From positions 7,251,705-7,315,704 of the forward strand of contig NC_049981.1 of NCBI RefSeq assembly GCF_000003815.2: 64,000 nt of DNA. Direction: 5' to 3'. Position numbers and translations under genes: made by a program. Origin of the DNA: Branchiostoma floridae. Its lineage: Eukaryota > Chordata > Leptocardii > Amphioxiformes > Branchiostomatidae. The first letter of the stretch is position 1, and each line of letters opens with the position of its first letter. Positions 1,872 to 40,305 of this stretch are shown piece by piece. The notes below the pieces were generated by a model that was not told where the DNA came from, ran no database searches, and saw only the letters and a program-made list of their open reading frames with translations.

Positions 1872-2255
1872 GGCTTTACCTCAGTCACACATTCCATCCA
1901 GCCTCCGTCGGTCGATTTGCATAACAATGTTTGACGTGTTTTCCAATCCGAGAAGCAAGAAATTAGATTTTATGTGGTCCGACAGTCATTCGATGTACAT
2001 GAGAAAAGAAGTTAACATTGGGGTTTTCAGTGACCTCACTAAAATTGTGATCATGATGGAAAAGAGTATGATCTAAACTATTTTGTTCATTTTGTAAAAG
2101 ATGATTTAGCACTAGGACTAAGCAGACTTTCAGGCAGATACCAGTCATCAAATGCAGGTTTAAGCAATTCAGTCTCTCAGTGTTTTCGAGTTTCGTTTGC
2201 CACCTGATCACCTTGCTACCTTGTTCTGATTGATACTATTTTGCATTACAGAAAT
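1872..2255 (+). other. 5' flank of the Kelch gene with a likely splice acceptor
   Basis: No coding sequence recognised. Bases 2241-2251 read TTGCATTACAG, a plausible 3' splice site, and leave only AAAT before the ATG at 2256. The gene therefore probably has an upstream non-coding exon joined here. The branch point and upstream exon cannot be assigned from sequence alone. Confidence 0.5.
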
Positions 2256-3608
2256 ATGGATACGATACCAACAGCAGCGCAGAGGCCAAAGCCGTCACTT
2301 GACGTTTGCCATGACACACACTCAACCGCCCTCTTGCAGGGTTTGCAGGAACTGCAGTCGGAGAACCTGCTGGTAGACGTCGTCCTTTGTGTCTCTGAGA
2401 AAGAAATCCTATGCTACAGAAATTTACTCGCTGCTTGTTGTGGATATTTTCGCGCAATGTTCTGCAATGGACATCGTGAGAACAAGGAGCATAAGGTAAC
2501 CATTCACGAGGCCAGTGACAGCATTGTGCAGCTTCTTGTAGACTACGCCTACACGTCAAAGGTTACCATCACAGAAGACAACGCTGTAGACCTGTTGGAA
2601 GGTGCCAGCTTCTTCCAGTTTCAACCGGTCATCAGAGATGCCTGCACAAAGTTCCTGTGTGACACTCTATGCGTCACAAATTGTCTGGAGAGACTGAACG
2701 TAGGGAACATGCTGATGAACCACCATCTGGAGAGCACTCCATTGTCGTACGTCATGAAAGAGTTTTCAGCTGCTAGCCAAACACCAGATTTCCTTGATTT
2801 GACAAAGGAACTCCTCATCACACTCATCTCATCAGATGACCTTGACGCTCCTGAAGAAACTGTGTTCATGGCGGTGATGAAGTGGATCAACCATGACACC
2901 AGGAAGAGGAAGAAGGAGATGAGAGAGCTGATGGAGCTGGTTAGGTTCCCCTGGATGGACAAGATGTACTTCATACAGAAGGTACAGACTGACAAGACCC
3001 TGCGTAAGTGCTGCCCGGATATTGTGTCAGAAACACTGAAGTATCAGGCCTACCCAGGGGAGGTACAGTCACCCCGCACCCATCCCCGCCATGCCAGTGG
3101 TTTGAGGGAGGCAATAGTGGTCATTGGAGGGACAGAGACATTAGGAAGTGAAGTAGGAAACCGTACTGTTGACAGCAATGACATCTTGATGACTCATTCG
3201 TCTACACCGTCAAACACAACCTGGGTTTCTATGACCACAATGAAGACGAGTGATGACTTTGGATTTGCTGTGGCTGTTTTGGGCACAAGTGACATCATGG
3301 TGTCTGGTGGTGAGCTTCAGTGCAGGGACGTTTGGCTGTATCAGGCAGGACTTGACTGCTGGTCTAATCTTGCTCCAATGAACACAGCAAGGTGCTGTCA
3401 CAAGCTGGCAGTGTTGCAAGGCAAAGTCTATGCTATTGGTGGCAGAATTAGCTTGTCACCACGTCGTGTAACAGCAGCTGTAGAAGTCTATGACCGAAGC
3501 CTGAACAAGTGGGCTGAAGGTGTTCCACTCCCACAGCCAAGGTTAGACCATGCAGCTGCAGTGTTAGATGGTAACATATATGTGATAGGTGGAATTGGCG
3601 CTGACTAA
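2256..3608 (+). CDS. BTB-BACK-Kelch (KLHL-family) protein, 450 aa, truncated propeller
   Basis: Members of this family are substrate receptors for cullin-3 ubiquitin ligases: the BTB domain binds CUL3 and the Kelch propeller binds the substrate. Visible order: BTB about residues 26-133 (SENLLVDVVLCVSEKEILCY, then FRAMFCNGHRE), BACK about 138-240 (ending FPWMDKMYFIQKV), then Kelch blades from about 284, with the double-glycine motifs VVIGG, VSGGE, YAIGG and YVIGG. The reading frame is uninterrupted by introns. The ATG at 2256 is chosen because it follows a splice acceptor at 2251; the few upstream codons have no ATG. The family normally has six blades and about 570-600 residues, whereas this frame stops at a TAA (3606-3608) in the fourth or fifth blade. 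Blade-like sequence continues past the stop, so this is either a recent pseudogene, a truncated product or an assembly error. The paralogue cannot be named. Confidence 0.85.
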   Translation: MDTIPTAAQRPKPSLDVCHDTHSTALLQGLQELQSENLLVDVVLCVSEKEILCYRNLLAACCGYFRAMFCNGHRENKEHKVTIHEASDSIVQLLVDYAYTSKVTITEDNAVDLLEGASFFQFQPVIRDACTKFLCDTLCVTNCLERLNVGNMLMNHHLESTPLSYVMKEFSAASQTPDFLDLTKELLITLISSDDLDAPEETVFMAVMKWINHDTRKRKKEMRELMELVRFPWMDKMYFIQKVQTDKTLRKCCPDIVSETLKYQAYPGEVQSPRTHPRHASGLREAIVVIGGTETLGSEVGNRTVDSNDILMTHSSTPSNTTWVSMTTMKTSDDFGFAVAVLGTSDIMVSGGELQCRDVWLYQAGLDCWSNLAPMNTARCCHKLAVLQGKVYAIGGRISLSPRRVTAAVEVYDRSLNKWAEGVPLPQPRLDHAAAVLDGNIYVIGGIGAD

Positions 3609-18446: not shown

Positions 18447-20562
18447 CTTTGTAACAAACTTTTCCAACGAGCGACTAGCACACGTACACGGTTCGCGCCA
18501 AAAACTCTAGATACCAAGATCTGTTTTGTCCATGCCGTGGTTTTGGGGTGGTACTAGTAGCTTTCTTGGAGCCCTTGTAGCTTTTCTATACACTAGAACG
18601 ACATTTTTATTCTGGGAACAAACTTTAGAGGGGCGACTAGCGCTTGTAGTACGCGCCAAAAACTCCGCTCTAAATCCTAACGCCGACAACTTCAATCTTG
18701 CGGACTCCAACTTGTCTAGATGCTTCCATATCAGTCCCGTCTCGACAGATGCAGTTTACGGTCGTCGATACAGATTCTCTTTCTATCAAGTGTGTCAGTA
18801 GGACCAAGGCCACACTCCGGCCCCTAGCGACTCTCTTTGGTTGTGCAGGGAAGTCATAGTTCTGTTTTAAACATGTCATGGTTGGTAGTAGATAACTTTC
18901 TTGGCGTAAATAGAAGTTTGGCGCCATTGTACCTCGTAACTATCTTGGACACTAGAACGACATTTTTATTTTGTGAACAAACTTTAGAGGGGCGACTAGC
19001 GCTTGCAGTACGCGCCAAAAACTCCGCTCTAAATCCCAACGCCGACAACTTCAATCTTGCGGACTCCGAGTTGTCTAGATGCTTCCATATCAGTCCCGTC
19101 TCGACATATGCAGTTTACGGCCTTTCCTGAGGATTCGCTTTCTATCAAGTGTGTCATTAGGACCAAGGCCACTCCCGACTCCTGGCGACTCTCTTTGGTT
19201 GTGCAGGGAAGTCATAGTTCTGTTTTTAACATGTCATGGTTGGTAGTAGCTAACTTTCTTGGCGTAAATATAAGTTTGGCGCCATTTTACCTCATAACTA
19301 TCGTGGACACTAGAGCGGCATTTTCATTTTGGAAACAAACTTTAGAGGGGCGACTAGCGCTTGCAGTACGCGCCAAAAACTCCGCTCTAAATCCCAACGC
19401 CGACAACTTCAATCTTGCGGACTCCGAGTTGTCTAGATGGTTCCATATCAGTTCCGTCTCGACAAGTGTATCAGTAGGACCAAGGCCACTCCCGACCCCT
19501 AGCGACTCTCTTATTGGTTGTGCAGGGAAGTCATAGTTCTGTTTTAAACATGTCATGGTTGGTAGTAGCTAATTTCTTGGCTCCAATAGATGTTTGGCGC
19601 CATTGTACCTCATAACTATCGTGGACACTAGAACGGCATTATTATTTTGGGAACAAACTTTAGAGGGGCGACTAGCGCTTACAGTACGCGCCAAAAAATA
19701 AATCCAAACGCCGACAACTTCAATCTTGCAGACTCCAACTTGTCTAGATGATTCCATATCAGTCCCGTCTCGACAGATGCAGTTTACGGCCTTTCCTGAG
19801 GATTCTCTTTCTATCAAGTGTGCCAGTAGGACCAAGGCCACACCCCGCCTCCTAGCGACTCTCTTTGGTTGTGTAGAGAAGTCATAGTTCTGTTTTAAAC
19901 ATGTCATGGTTGGTAGTAGCTAACGTTCCTGGCTCAAATATAAGTTTGGCGCCCTTGTACCTCATAACTATCGTGGACACTAGAACGGCATTATTGTTTT
20001 GGGAACAAACTTTAGAGGGGCGACTACCGCTTACAGTACGCGCCAAAAAATAAATCCAAACGCCGACAACTTCAATCTTGCAGACTCCAACTTGTCTAGA
20101 TGATTCCATATCAGTCCCGTCTCGACAGATGCAGTTTACGGCCTTTCCTGAGGATTCTCTTTCTATCAAGTGTGCCAGTAGGACCAAGGCCACACCCCGC
20201 CTCCTAGCGACTCTCTTTGGTTGTGTAGAGAAGTCATAGTTCTGTTTTAAACATGTCATGGTTGGTAGTAGCTAACGTTCCTGGCTCAAATATAAGTTTG
20301 GCGCCCTTGTACCTCATAACTATCGTGGACACTAGAACGGCATTATTGTTTTGGGAACAAACTTTAGAGGGGCGACTACCGCTTGCAGTACGCGCCAAAA
20401 ACTAAATCCAAACGCCGACAACTTCAATCTTGCGGACTCCAACTTGTCTGGATGATTCCATATCAGTCCCGTCTCGACAGATGCAGTTTACGGTCGTCGC
20501 TGTGGATTCTCTTTCTATCAAGTGTGCCAGTAGGACCAAGGCCACACCCCGGCCCCACAGGC
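18447..20562. repeat. Satellite array, about 350-bp units, six copies plus fragments
   Basis: The word ACTAGAACG (one copy has ACTAGAGCG) recurs at 18592, 18951, 19309, 19627, 19979 and 20331, giving unit lengths 359, 358, 318, 352 and 352 bp. Each unit carries GAGGGGCGACTAGCGCTT, GCGCCAAAAA, AACGCCGACAACTTCAATCT, CAGTCCCGTCTCGACA and AACATGTCATGGTTGGTAG. The third unit has lost about 35-40 bp around 19463. The 19627 and 19979 units are almost identical, pointing to recent homogenisation. Shorter, more diverged fragments lead in from 18447. No function is assigned; the open frames through it are shadows. Confidence 0.95.
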
Positions 20563-32091: not shown

Positions 32092-32397
32092 TAGCATTGA
32101 ACAAACCCGCTAAAAAACGACTAACGTGCGTCAAAAACCATTCGGCGCCGAACCTCTGCTTGGAGAGTAGCTGAACGGTTGGTTCAACCTGGGTTGAACG
32201 GTGTCCATCCAGTCGAAAGGGGGGCCTTCAGAATCGACCAATCAGAAGCTAGCCACTTGTCTGGTTGGAAAGCCGAAAGGTCAGTCGGGAAGGCGTCACG
32301 AGTGTGGGCGGATGTACTCAGTAACTACTTCACGGCGTCAGCCTTATCTTCAAACCGTCCGACCATTGTTGGTTCGAGTTGTGCAAAGTGCGCCACC

Positions 32398-35281: not shown

Positions 35282-36299
35282 GAAGAATACGGTCTCACTT
35301 CGCTGGTAAATTATTCAAAATTACATACATTTTAGCGAACAACTATACTAAGGAGACCTATAGATATAAGTGGAAAATGAAATACCCAGGCGAGCTTTAG
35401 ACAGATTGTTTCTTGAGCTGGGAAATTAATATCTATAGACCCCAGGGGTAGCGTCGGGAAAAAGGATAAACCCGCGACACTCATCTGCGTCGATAAATTT
35501 GTCAGAAGTGAAAGCGCGTTCCTCAGGCGGCGTTTGCAGACGACAATCTCTGTCAGTTGGCGACAAGTTCCCGCCAAAGCGATCAACTAGAAACTGGAGA
35601 CCAATTTGTCTAAATTTCTTCAGATTCGTGCCTTCTTCTTCTTTTTTTCTCCAATGTAGGCAAAAATACTTTTGTCATTATTGGTGGAGTTGCGCTTTTC
35701 TGTCTTGCTCACTTATTGGAGATTCCACATGCGTCGTTGCCATGGTAACAAAACGCAAAAGATCGTGCGAAGGAAGAATATTGAAAAAAAGAGCGTACAA
35801 TGGTCGTCATACTTTGATAGGGTTCAAAAATATGGGATCTAGTAGGAAAAAAAAACACACATATTTTTGGTTATCGTATCATTGAAAGTCGGTGCCGATG
35901 CGTTTAGCGGTGACTTCCAAGCAGATGTTAGGAGGTAGAGACTGCAAAACTCCTCCGGTTGTTCGGGCAACACAATTCTACCGTTTTGCAAAAAGATCGA
36001 ATAAGACATTGTTCACCATCCCGTCATACTCTGACTTAGACAAACGTTTCCAGTGACCCCAGATTTCAAAAGAAAAGTTTTCATGACATGTTTGACTTTT
36101 CTGAATGCATTTCTAGCCGTAGGGGTGATGTTAGGTAAATACAACAGCCTCTACTTTTGTCACGCGTTGATTTATTTGCTAAAATGTTACCAGACATACG
36201 CTGAGAACCGAATTGGTAAGAAGTAGAGTTTTTGATATTTTTGAGCGTTTTTAATGATTTGAATCCTTCCGAGGGAGTGCAGTCGGTTTGGCGTGACAG
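35282..36299. other. Upstream flank of the Smad6/7 gene
   Basis: No coding sequence recognised. One CTTCCAAGCAGATG foldback-type end is at 35917, the last one in the window. Distal promoter elements may lie here but none can be assigned. Confidence 0.4.
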
Positions 36300-36357
36300 C
36301 CGGTGGCCGGTAATGTGATCTGTTATTTGCGCACCCATCGGCGGAGCGCGCCAAAAC

Positions 36358-36365
36358 GTCTAGAC
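36358..36365. promoter_or_regulatory. Palindromic Smad-binding element 1
   Basis: Perfect GTCTAGAC. Immediately upstream is GCGCGCC followed by five bases (AAAAC), close to the GC-rich half plus N5 plus GTCT arrangement of BMP-Smad response elements. Confidence 0.7.
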
Positions 36366-36383
36366 GCGCTGCCGCCGCACGGA

Positions 36384-36388
36384 CCAAT
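36384..36388 (+). promoter_or_regulatory. CCAAT box
   Basis: GGACCAATCAGCG matches the NF-Y consensus (CCAAT followed by CA/GG). It lies between the two Smad palindromes. Confidence 0.6.
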
Positions 36389-36443
36389 CAGCGCGCAGCT
36401 CCCCGCCATCAGGACGGCTGCAAATTGGGGCCGTGTTTTCGGT

Positions 36444-36451
36444 GTCTAGAC
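36444..36451. promoter_or_regulatory. Palindromic Smad-binding element 2
   Basis: A second perfect GTCTAGAC in GGTGTCTAGACACT, 86 bp from the first. The vertebrate SMAD7 promoter is known to use this same 8-bp palindrome for feedback induction. Confidence 0.7.
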
Positions 36452-36781
36452 ACTCCGCAGCAGTGGAGGCAAAATCCAGCCCGGTACCGCGTCGCTTTCG
36501 TGCCTCCTGTAGTCGGATTCGAACCCAACATCCCAGGATTTTGGCACCCATCGATGCCTTAGGAAGTTGTCTGTACGGGTCTGTCGGTGTCCGGTGGATT
36601 GGAGTCCCCGATCGCGCGCGCGAGCGGAGTTAGTGCGGGGAACGCTGCGGAGACAGAGCGCGAGTCGTCCCCTGCCTGGGTGGGCACCCACCGTGGAAGC
36701 GGTAGTCTTGCTCCTGCGACTTGGAAGGTGCGGCGGTTCCCTTCGGTTCGGCTTCGCCGTGTGGCCGCAGTCGTGCCTCGG

Positions 36782-36823
36782 ATGTCCCTATGCGTGTTGC
36801 TCGGGGTGCTGTGGCCCTCCTGA
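36782..36823 (+). other. Upstream ORF, 13 codons
   Basis: The frame encodes MSLCVLLGVLWPS and then TGA at 36821-36823, ending four bases before the main ATG at 36828. If translated it would affect initiation on Smad6/7. Its presence in the mRNA is inferred. Confidence 0.45.
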
Positions 36824-36827
36824 CCGC

Positions 36828-37329
36828 ATGTTCCGGTCGCGAAGATCGGGCCTAGTCCGGCGGTTGTGGCGAGCTCGGGTGGCCCGGAGGTCCGGTGGAG
36901 ATGGGGAGGGCGAGGACGAGTCGAGCGGGTCCGGCTCCGAAGTCGGCGGCGGCTCCACATGCCAGGCCTCCGACTCTGCTCACTCCTGTGGCCAAGGAAA
37001 ACCAGAAGACGACCCCGAGCTCAAATCGGTGACTTTCTCGGTCCTGAAGAGGCTAAAAGAGCGCCAGCTCGAGTTGTTAGTCCAGACCGTCGAGTCGAGG
37101 GGAGGGTTGGAGTCGGGGTGTGTGCACTTCCCTCGGCCCGACGTCAGGATCGGGCGCAGGACAGTCGCCCCACACGTGCTAACATGCCTCTTGTGGAGGT
37201 GGACAGATCTACAACATCCTCACCAACTCAAAACCCTCATGTGCTGCCAAAGTTACGGACAACAGGACGGAGATTGCGGCCCAACAGTGTGCTGTAACCC
37301 GTACCACTACACCAGGCTCTGCGGACCAG
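36828..37329 (+). CDS. Smad6/7: Inhibitory Smad (Smad6/7) coding exon 1: N-terminus and MH1-like domain
   Basis: Inhibitory Smads block TGF-beta/BMP receptors and recruit Smurf ubiquitin ligases. The 167 codons begin MFRSRRSGLVRRLW, the conserved N-terminus of SMAD6 and SMAD7, which fixes the ATG at 36828 even though the frame stays open upstream. An acidic Gly/Ser-rich stretch follows (about 22-60). The MH1-like domain (about 62-165) contains LKRLKERQLELLVQTVESRG (74-93) and LLWRWTDLQHPHQLKTLMCC (121-140). It ends with the Cys/His cluster GPTVCCNPYHYTRLCGP (151-167), which keeps the zinc-binding Cys and His. Codon use is GC-rich. The exon ends CCAG at 37329 before GTTCGT, leaving one base (phase 1). 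The C-terminal cluster is closest to SMAD6 and the KERQLELL helix to SMAD7, as expected for a single pre-duplication gene. Confidence 0.95.
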
Positions 37330-38202
37330 GTTCGTTTTTCAAAACAACCCCTCTATTATAATCTTCCCTTTTTAACTTTACCCCCATTCAAAACCTCCCG
37401 TCTTTAAATTCCACAAACAGTTGTAACATTTTCCTACGTGTTCCTACCTCTGTTATCGAAGTTTGCCACAGTTTTGTGGCACTTTCACGAAGTTTGCTAC
37501 AAGTTGGAGAAAATGATGGATGAGCTTCAGCCAAAACATTTCAGTGACACGCCGGGGGCACAGCACAGCGCTGAACCTTAGCAAAACCTATTGATCTGAA
37601 TATGGAAATATGACCACTAATTATCACGGATTTGTACCAACCACACAAGCAGTGATTGCTCCATTTCGCAACAAAAGTAACGTTTTTATTATATTAATGT
37701 TGCAAGCTGGTAAAGTTGTAGCCTTGAAGAGAAAGGAAAGGGAAAAGTTAGTGGCTCCTCCCCCGCCTGTAACTAAATCCTGGCGGCCCCATTTTAAGCG
37801 TGCAGTGCTATCATGCCATGCTGATTAGATTAGCCAAAACATTACCGATTCCTTTACAAATTTCGCCCCTCTTACACCCCCAAACGACCCAATCTAGCCT
37901 CAAAGCGAAGAGAAAATTGATCGAATGGTAGAGTTTTTAGAAGCGGGTTTTTGTGTGTGGTTGTGTGCGTTGTTTTTCCGGGACAGGCGGGTAATTAGAA
38001 TATGAAAGCGGCGTCTGAAGATGTGAATTGGCGATGGCCGGGCCAGGGTGGCGCCAGAGAGACCGCCTCTTATCGTGGCCAAGCGACAGGCAGCAATTAA
38101 CGCCGGGCCCTGCTGGTAGGAAGGGAAAAAAAGCCTGCCTGTGTCCTACCACATCCACATTATCTCACAAAATTTCCCCTTCTTCTGTTTTATTTTTTAC
38201 AG
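37330..38202 (+). other. Smad6/7: Smad6/7 intron 1 (873 bp)
   Basis: Starts GTTCGT and ends TATTTTTTACAG. No repeat or exon-like segment recognised inside. The short frames at 37610-37828 and 38028-38202 are intronic. Confidence 0.9.
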
Positions 38203-38265
38203 AAAGTCCGCCACCGCCGTATTCCAGATTTCCGCTGGATAGACTCAGGAGCCTCAGTCCAGAAG
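38203..38265 (+). CDS. Smad6/7: Smad6/7 coding exon 2: PPPPY (PY) motif
   Basis: This 63-nt exon sits between TTTTTTACAG and AAG|GTATGG. Joined to the single G left by exon 1, it reads ESPPPPYSRFPLDRLRSLSP then E, and leaves one base (phase 1). PPPPYSR is the PY motif by which SMAD6 and SMAD7 bind the WW domains of Smurf1/2 and NEDD4-type ligases, so that they can carry these to receptors. A small separate PY exon after the MH1 exon is also the arrangement I recall for vertebrate SMAD7. The exon is too short for a simple open-frame call and is supported by homology and both splice sites. Confidence 0.95.
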
Positions 38266-40305
38266 GTATGGTGCAAAAAAGAAAAGAATTTGCAGGTTTT
38301 TAAATTGATGGGAAACGATTGAGTGCGAACGACAGTGTCCAGACGACCTAACCAACGCTAATACTTGGAATACTTTCTTCTAGGCCTGTTTAAAATCTAC
38401 TCTTATTCCCATCAACTTAAAGAAAAGTTTAAGAAACACCTGAAGAAAATGTAGGGAAAGCGATATGCAGTTGTTTTTGACATGAAATCCTTGATCAAAC
38501 AAAGATGGCTTTATCAATTTAGATAATCTAGGAGACAGTGTCTGTGGTTTTGCAAACAGTCATGTGTATTCCGAGTTGGAGACAAAACTCAAACAAAAGA
38601 ATTTTGCAAACTCATTTTTATTATGAATGCAGATTTTAGGTAGAGAAAGTTGACGGTAGCTTGGACTGGATTGAACTTTGTAGTGGTTCAACTTTTGGGG
38701 CCGTGCCAAGGTTTGGGTTGGCTTGAAGGCCAAGAAAAGTTGAACAAGTGCAAGAAAAACAATGCCAATTGTTGCATGCGCAAAGCGTTTAATCCACACT
38801 GCGAAAACTTTGTCTGTCGCTACCTTTTCAGGAAGCCATAACACCAGTTTTTCGGATGTGTTTTTGGTCAAGTTTTGTTGTCTGCCATACCAAGATTAGA
38901 ATCAACAAAATACCAGGAATAAAAGAATTGAATACAGTTATTTGCAAGAACAAAAACAAAGATTCCACAAACTCTAAACAGTGAAAACTTGAGCCAATAT
39001 CTTTACCATAGTAAAGGCAATGTCTTACAATTGCATGATTTGTCTGTTTCATGAAATGCTTAGCGACACCTGTATTTTCTGAAAGATATTTTTATATTAA
39101 AATGAAACACAACAAATATGATAAGGTGTTTAGATTCCTTGAATATAAAAGAGATTTTCTTGAAATGTATGTTATAAAAGTATTTCTCCAATTCCAATTT
39201 GAGAATGACAAAAAAGAATGCATCTAGACATACTACCAAAACTGGTTTGAAAGCGGGAACTTCTATCAATGTTACTTGCGTAGCATTCAAATATTTACTT
39301 CATATAGGAAGTATTGGTAGTTCGTAGTCTTAAAAGAAGGTTTAGTTTAAGAATGCTTAGTTTAAGAGTGAGCCAATGTTGCCGAAAACACTACATCGTT
39401 CAAAGCCTAGTCAGTAGCAACCAAAAAGACAACAGGCAAATAATGTTGGTAACTTTGTTTCAAGTCCCCTTGTTCACAAACATACTAACTTACTCACACA
39501 CACATCTAAAAGTAAAACACAATCCCTTCCAAGACAACTTGGCAGAGGTAAGAACGTCATTAAGTTTAACCACCTACATGAAAAACAATGTAGGAGTCTT
39601 GTTGGAAGACCTTGGTTGGGAGGTCAGGGTTTGTTAGGTTTTTGTGTGACCTCTGAACTACTTGTTGAGTAAATGTATGCTAATCGCTATGTCTGACCAA
39701 CCATGGAAAATGTATGGTGCAGTCTGGTCAATTACTGTAAAATCTTTAAACTTTTGCATTGGTTTCATTGTCATGGTTTTCAGAACTTTCCTCGTGACAC
39801 CAAAAATATGTATTACTGTACTACAAAATTATTTCAACTGCAAACTTAAAATACTGTTAAAACCTCATTTTCTAACCATGAAACCAACCTGTGAAAATAA
39901 ATGAACTTACAGTATTCGATTAACTTGTGATATATGTCCAAGTTATATGATTTAATTTGATGCTACTTGGATTAGGATAATGATAATAATACTGAATTTG
40001 TAGATCAACATAGATCTTTACTATATACTGAAGAGAGGTAGATTGTTTTCGTTAATGTTTTCAAGAAGACTTTTGGTAAACTGAAAGACCAAAATGAAAA
40101 CAGAATCTGAGGGGAAAAAGTTTGTACATTGTTACACAAAAAAAGAAGGGTTTGAAAAAAATTTGACTCACGTTTTCCTCCCAGCCCTCTGTTTTCATCG
40201 TGATTTCTTTTTTTAATTTTACTTTTGAGTGTCAAAAAAAGAGGGAAATGAAGATTGTTGTGTTGACGTTGTTTGATAACACATGTTTTTCCTCTGTTTT
40301 TGCAG
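38266..40305 (+). other. Smad6/7: Smad6/7 intron 2 (about 2.0 kb)
   Basis: Starts GTATGG and ends with CTCTGTTTTTGCAG. AT-rich, without recognisable transposons. Open frames on both strands here have no family motif. Confidence 0.85.

Follow-up and report, generated by a model that had tools for sequence, protein, structure and literature searches.

The proximal promoter of the amphioxus inhibitory Smad (I-Smad) gene, Smad6/7, carries two perfect copies of the palindromic Smad-binding element (SBE) GTCTAGAC, placed 86 bp apart, and the first of them is framed by GC-rich half-sites of the kind that accompany GTCT in BMP-responsive elements. Judging from this arrangement, we consider it likely that 36347-36451 forms the Smad-responsive part of the I-Smad proximal promoter and serves negative feedback, site 1 receiving input of the BMP type and both sites input of the Smad3/4 type. 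Smad6/7 is thus probably switched on by the very pathway that it restrains, as is vertebrate SMAD7, which would not be surprising. Positions refer throughout to the window, the whole 64-kb stretch of amphioxus DNA that was analyzed.

Palindromic Smad-binding elements upstream of Smad6/7

The two palindromes anticipated by the original prediction were both found in their expected places (Table 1), and with the Smad6/7 ATG located at 36828, the predicted distances of 470 and 377 bp to the start codon are also right. They are the only perfect copies of GTCTAGAC in the window, and the same two remain the only ones across 114 kb of contiguous sequence (10 kb 5' of the window, the window itself, and 40 kb 3' of it). 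As a whole, the observation is confirmed and proved somewhat stronger at site 1 than had been claimed.

Table 1. Coordinates of the Smad6/7 promoter elements and coding exons (window positions)
Feature	Position	Strand	Basis or remark
GC-rich promoter and first exon	36251-37250	.	GC 0.58-0.69 vs 0.38 and 0.45 in the adjoining 250 bp
Composite CGCGCC-AAAAC-GTCT (differs from GGCGCC-N5-GTCT at position +1 alone, G to C)	36347-36361	+	sequence match
Site 1, palindromic SBE GTCTAGAC	36358-36365	.	sequence match
Composite GGCGGC-AGCGC-GTCT (full GRCGNC-N5-GTCT match)	36362-36376	-	sequence match
CCAAT box	36384-36388	+	sequence match
Second CCAAT box, opposite orientation	36424-36428	-	sequence match
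Site 2, palindromic SBE GTCTAGAC, inside the 11-mer GGTGTCTAGAC	36444-36451	.	sequence match
First coding exon of Smad6/7, N-terminus and MH1 domain	36828-37329	+	splice end by eye
GGCGCC palindrome (38050-38055), GGCGCCA-N4-GNCV on both strands	38041-38064	.	sequence match
Second coding exon, PPPPY linker	38203-38265	+	borders by eye
MH2 exon, outside the window	77579-78091		tblastn

Gene identity and promoter surroundings

The assignment of the downstream gene to the inhibitory Smads is borne out by its domain architecture. Coding begins with MFRSRRSGLVRRLW..., and exon 1 encodes a SMAD6/7-like N-terminus followed by an MH1 domain (PF03165, E 1.1e-26), while exon 2 supplies the PY linker as PPPPYSR. 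The MH2 exon, recovered by tblastn with human SMAD6 and SMAD7 queries, lies about 39 kb downstream of exon 2, and the gene spans about 41 kb. Here the SMAD7 match covers 77579-78082, and the SMAD6 match (57% identity), whose first part extends into the intron, runs to 78091. The exon ends in ...WVEVLLNINR followed by stops, without the SSXS phosphorylation tail, so that the MH1 and MH2 domains, the PY linker and the missing C-terminal SSXS together mark the product as an I-Smad. Published accounts place a single ancestral I-Smad before the vertebrate duplications and give one I-Smad as the typical number in invertebrates (PMC3413983, PMC12865960).

Both palindromes fall inside the GC-rich proximal promoter of this gene. 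Where the original prediction had placed one CCAAT box between them there are two, at 36384 and, in the opposite orientation, at 36424; the former we take to be a candidate NF-Y site. Judging by where these boxes lie, transcription may begin near 36450-36530. No E-box or AP-1 partner was detected beside the palindromes, as judged by CANNTG, TGACG, CGTCA and TGASTMA in 36301-36520 and by TGASTCA in 35900-38300, and the nearest CACGTG found lies at 37173, in exon 1. Closer to the start codon, two short upstream open reading frames occupy 36782-36855, one of 13 aa at 36782 and one of 21 aa at 36790 that overlaps the Smad6/7 start; if included in the mRNA, they may dampen Smad6/7 translation.

Chance expectation and genome-wide background of the palindrome pair

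Shuffling of the window gave a mean of 0.84 copies of GTCTAGAC per 64 kb. At least two copies appeared in 22 of 100 shuffles, and a count of two is therefore ordinary when taken alone. With one mismatch allowed, the window holds 33 occurrences vs 18.6 expected, a number reached in none of 100 shuffles, and 11 of the 33 lie within 18714-20478, inside tandem arrays. These arrays extend over 18590-20551 and consist of units of about 352-358 bp with 93-96% matches. The clustering of two perfect copies 86 bp apart within a promoter, by contrast with their mere number, is not ordinary: using Markov models of two orders, trained on sequence without the two sites, at least two copies within 500 bp 5' of the ATG occurred in 0 of 20,000 simulations under each order, and within 1000 bp in 0 and 2 of 20,000, respectively.

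Over all 256 palindromes of 8 bp, the window contains six pairs of identical copies no more than 100 bp apart, the GTCTAGAC pair included, and a pair of some palindrome somewhere is therefore not rare; the argument rests on the identity of the word, a Smad site, and of the gene, one of Smad feedback. Across the genome, GTCTAGAC-N65-95-GTCTAGAC was found in at least 12 places in nine loci, compared with at least 59 pairs for a reversed control word in the same search (repeat counts are lower bounds, and very common words were left out), indicating that a pair of an 8-bp palindrome is in itself no rarity. Judged by eye from their flanks, seven of the nine loci belong to repeats (tandem, inverted or other), leaving the Smad6/7 promoter and C3:24025525 as the non-repetitive ones. 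Simple arithmetic from the shuffle mean (about 6,700 GTCTAGAC sites) predicts about 2.7 chance pairs in the 513-Mb genome (431 contigs); set against the two non-repetitive pairs, this means that pairs as such are not enriched and that it is the location that counts. Among the repetitive loci, C10:6390637-6390823 is an array in which GTCTAGAC and its near variants are densely packed; the 3.1-kb locus holds six perfect copies.

BMP-type composites at site 1

Site 1 reads CGCGCC-AAAAC-GTCTAGAC on the plus strand and GGCGGC-AGCGC-GTCTAGAC on the minus strand, so that GC half-sites ending in C flank it on both sides, each exactly 5 bp off. The original prediction had noted one GC-rich half-site five bases upstream and an approximation to the BMP-Smad arrangement; that half-site is present, as CGCGCC, albeit one mismatch from GGCGCC, and the arrangement is better than claimed owing to the second half-site, GGCGGC, on the other strand. 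Site 2 has no GC half-site flank at 5 bp.

In human-cell reporters, a BMP response requires a spacer of exactly 5 bp separating GTCT from the GC half-site, and the two motifs must each have their first G adjoining that spacer, on opposite strands; the C at the sixth base of GGCGCC is essential, a change of the +1 G to A or C reduces the response, and any substitution in GGCGCC lowered or abolished it (PMC11907993). The plus-strand composite alters only the first base of GGCGCC, to C, and the minus-strand composite keeps the essential C and alters the fifth base. As both half-sites depart from GGCGCC, neither composite is expected to equal the ID-gene element in strength. Relative to that element, GGCGCC-N5-GTCTG (PMC11907993), the amphioxus composites retain the 5-bp spacing and the essential C beside the spacer, but differ in their half-sites, in reading GTCTA rather than GTCTG, and in having GTCT within a palindrome, whose core is thus shared by two overlapping composites. 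The human-cell reporters did not respond to BMP when they carried paired palindromic SBEs, and working TGF-beta reporters had their sites 3 or 5 bp apart (PMC11907993), compared with 78 here. Since Smad4 recognition of GGCGC holds down to Trichoplax (PMC5727232), the Smad binding rules should be transferable to amphioxus.

Exact GGCGCC-N5-GTCT does not occur in the 114 kb. GRCGNC-N5-GTCT, quoted as the GC-rich BMP-Smad element (PMC12259022), occurs once in the window, and once in the 114 kb, as the minus-strand composite of site 1; with 0.45 expected in the window and at least one in 34 of 100 shuffles, it is ordinary on its own for 64 kb. GCGCC-N5-GTCT likewise has its single occurrence in 114 kb at site 1. 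Against a simulated local background, GRCGNC-N5 on any flank has P=0.016, and GCGNC-N5, a form picked after the sequence was seen, has P=0.045 on any flank and P=0.0008 for two or more flanks out of four. In the 513-Mb genome, GCGNC-N5-GTCTAGAC gave 22 strand hits vs 16 for the reversed control, a small excess. Two of the 22 share site 1, the sole palindrome among them that is framed from both sides; at the other 20 loci, several of which are repeat copies, no BMP target was recognized by eye from the first residues of 175 ORFs.

Intron 1 (37330-38202, borders by eye) contains a further element built on GGCGCC, whose nearest other occurrences are at 32144 and 53453. It matches GGCGCCA-N4-GNCV, the consensus of the fly activating element (quoted in PMC11907993 and PMC12259022), in full on both strands. 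The window holds three matches to this consensus vs 0.13 expected, and three were reached in none of 100 shuffles, although two of the three fall on one palindrome and are therefore not independent. PMC4321984 cites a first-intron BMP response element for Smad7, and we regard 38041-38064 as a candidate second BMP element.

Comparison with known Smad-responsive promoters

The 8-mer is also present in the published SBE probe of the SMAD7 promoter, AAGCGACAGGGTGTCTAGACGG (PMC5918965). We take this probe as mammalian, given that the article treats the human promoter and the group from which the reporter came is cited for the mouse promoter. Like amphioxus Smad6/7, vertebrate SMAD7 is an I-Smad gene with a perfect GTCTAGAC in its proximal promoter. 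The probe reads AGCGAC-N5-GTCTAGAC, placing GCGAC at spacer 5, and thus resembles site 1 in having a GCGNC half-site 5 bp off, on one side only in the probe as printed; it also has the 11-mer GGTGTCTAGAC in common with amphioxus site 2. These common words are short and suggestive only. In contrast to the vertebrate promoter, where an E-box and AP-1 accompany the SBE, the amphioxus promoter has two palindromes and two CCAAT boxes, with neither partner nearby. The SBE/E-box pair is described as being conserved between zebrafish, mouse and human (PMC4321984), and deletion of the AP-1 site lowers SMAD7 promoter activity (PMC5918965). In view of the absent partner, homology of the amphioxus and SMAD7 elements is unproven, and an 8-bp site can easily arise anew. 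The interpretation given in the original prediction is thus supported in part: the I-Smad gene, the proximal-promoter position of the sites, the 8-mer in common with SMAD7 and the BMP-type arrangement all stand, and function as a feedback promoter is plausible, whereas the proposed common ancestry goes beyond these points of agreement.

I-Smad control by BMP is also documented in a non-vertebrate deuterostome, the sea urchin, where BMP4 induces smad6 under a translation block and the gene is likely a direct BMP2/4 target, with no element named in the accessible part of the report (PMC3009687). It follows that an I-Smad feedback antedating the SMAD6/SMAD7 split is to be expected and is no novelty, and that the feedback loop probably predates chordates. 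In the sea anemone, BRE enrichment is reported at pSMAD1/5 sites, in an article whose accessible part contained no mention of I-Smad or SMAD7 (PMC10849676). A literature search on amphioxus and GTCTAGAC returned no report, and the accessible parts of PMC12865960, PMC13121700 and PMC13193452 do not mention the amphioxus Smad6/7 promoter.

Proposed function and alternative explanations

From the layout of the element, we envisage that at site 1, on either strand, activated Smad1/5-Smad4 complexes would sit back to back over GTCT and the GC half-site 5 bp from it, and that Smad3/4 complexes could engage both palindromes through their GTCT halves. The promoter would be kept open by factors bound to the intervening CCAAT boxes, and the resulting Smad6/7 would block the receptors, closing a negative-feedback loop. 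Such a promoter would work like that of vertebrate SMAD7, with the addition of a BMP-type composite joined to its palindrome. Should the element prove functional, it would provide a concrete, mutable sequence for asking how one I-Smad promoter serving both BMP and Nodal/Activin came to be split between SMAD6 and SMAD7 following duplication of the genome, and whether an invertebrate chordate obeys the same 5-bp rule of BMP spacing as human cells and flies.

The most general alternative is chance, by which two 8-bp words and GC-rich flanks simply met in a GC-rich promoter, with the true BMP input lying elsewhere, for example in the intron 1 GGCGCC element. The genome-wide pair counts, which do not exceed expectation and are surpassed by the reversed control, are compatible with this account, as is the ease with which GC half-sites come in GC-rich DNA; the intron 1 element, with its consensus on both strands and its excess over expectation, and the first-intron element cited for Smad7 add to it. 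We nevertheless consider coincidence unlikely, for the pair stands in the promoter of a gene known as a Smad target in other animals, the local simulations rarely or never place two copies there, and both GC flanks of site 1 lie at exactly 5 bp. An origin of the two palindromes as copies of a repeat or mobile element would accord with the repetitive appearance of seven of the other eight pair loci, but the flanks of sites 1 and 2 are unlike each other, and the 16-mer starting in site 1 was found once in the genome. We therefore rejected a repeat-derived pair, which is very improbable.

The fly Dpp silencer carries a G after GTCT, and the absence of that final G from site 1 weighs against the notion that the palindromes are mainly Smad4-Ski/SnoN repressor sites, keeping the gene off without signal, with induction amounting to de-repression. 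Site 1 does match the silencer consensus GNCGNC-N5-GTCT in full on the minus strand (PMC11907993, PMC12259022); in addition, Smad4 favors GTCTAGAC over the CAGA motif in vitro, and a Smad4-c-Ski complex represses the SMAD7 promoter without ligand (PMC11063908). As the principal role of the sites, repression appears improbable, although it would be compatible with the feedback reading. In a stronger form of the latter, the amphioxus element would correspond directly to the SBE of the vertebrate SMAD7 promoter, both having persisted since before the SMAD6/SMAD7 split. The shared 8-mer, its promoter position, the GCGNC-N5 on one side and GGTGTCTAGAC at site 2 speak for such descent, and the missing E-box or AP-1 neighbor and the shortness of the common words against it, and we regard it as rather unlikely. 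More speculatively, and with little confidence, site 1 could be a symmetric two-way Smad switch, GC-N5-GTCTAGAC-N5-GC, in which two overlapping BMP composites both take their GTCT half from the palindrome, itself also a Smad3/4 site. The single pre-duplication I-Smad would then have answered BMP and Nodal/Activin there, and what the SMAD6/SMAD7 split left of this switch would be the SMAD7 SBE, flanked by GCGAC-N5 on one side only.

Additional features of the window

A scan for bacterial sigma-70 promoters returned one weak match, which is meaningless for this DNA. Elsewhere in the window, a 466-aa open frame at 2208-3608 carries BTB, BACK and Kelch domains.
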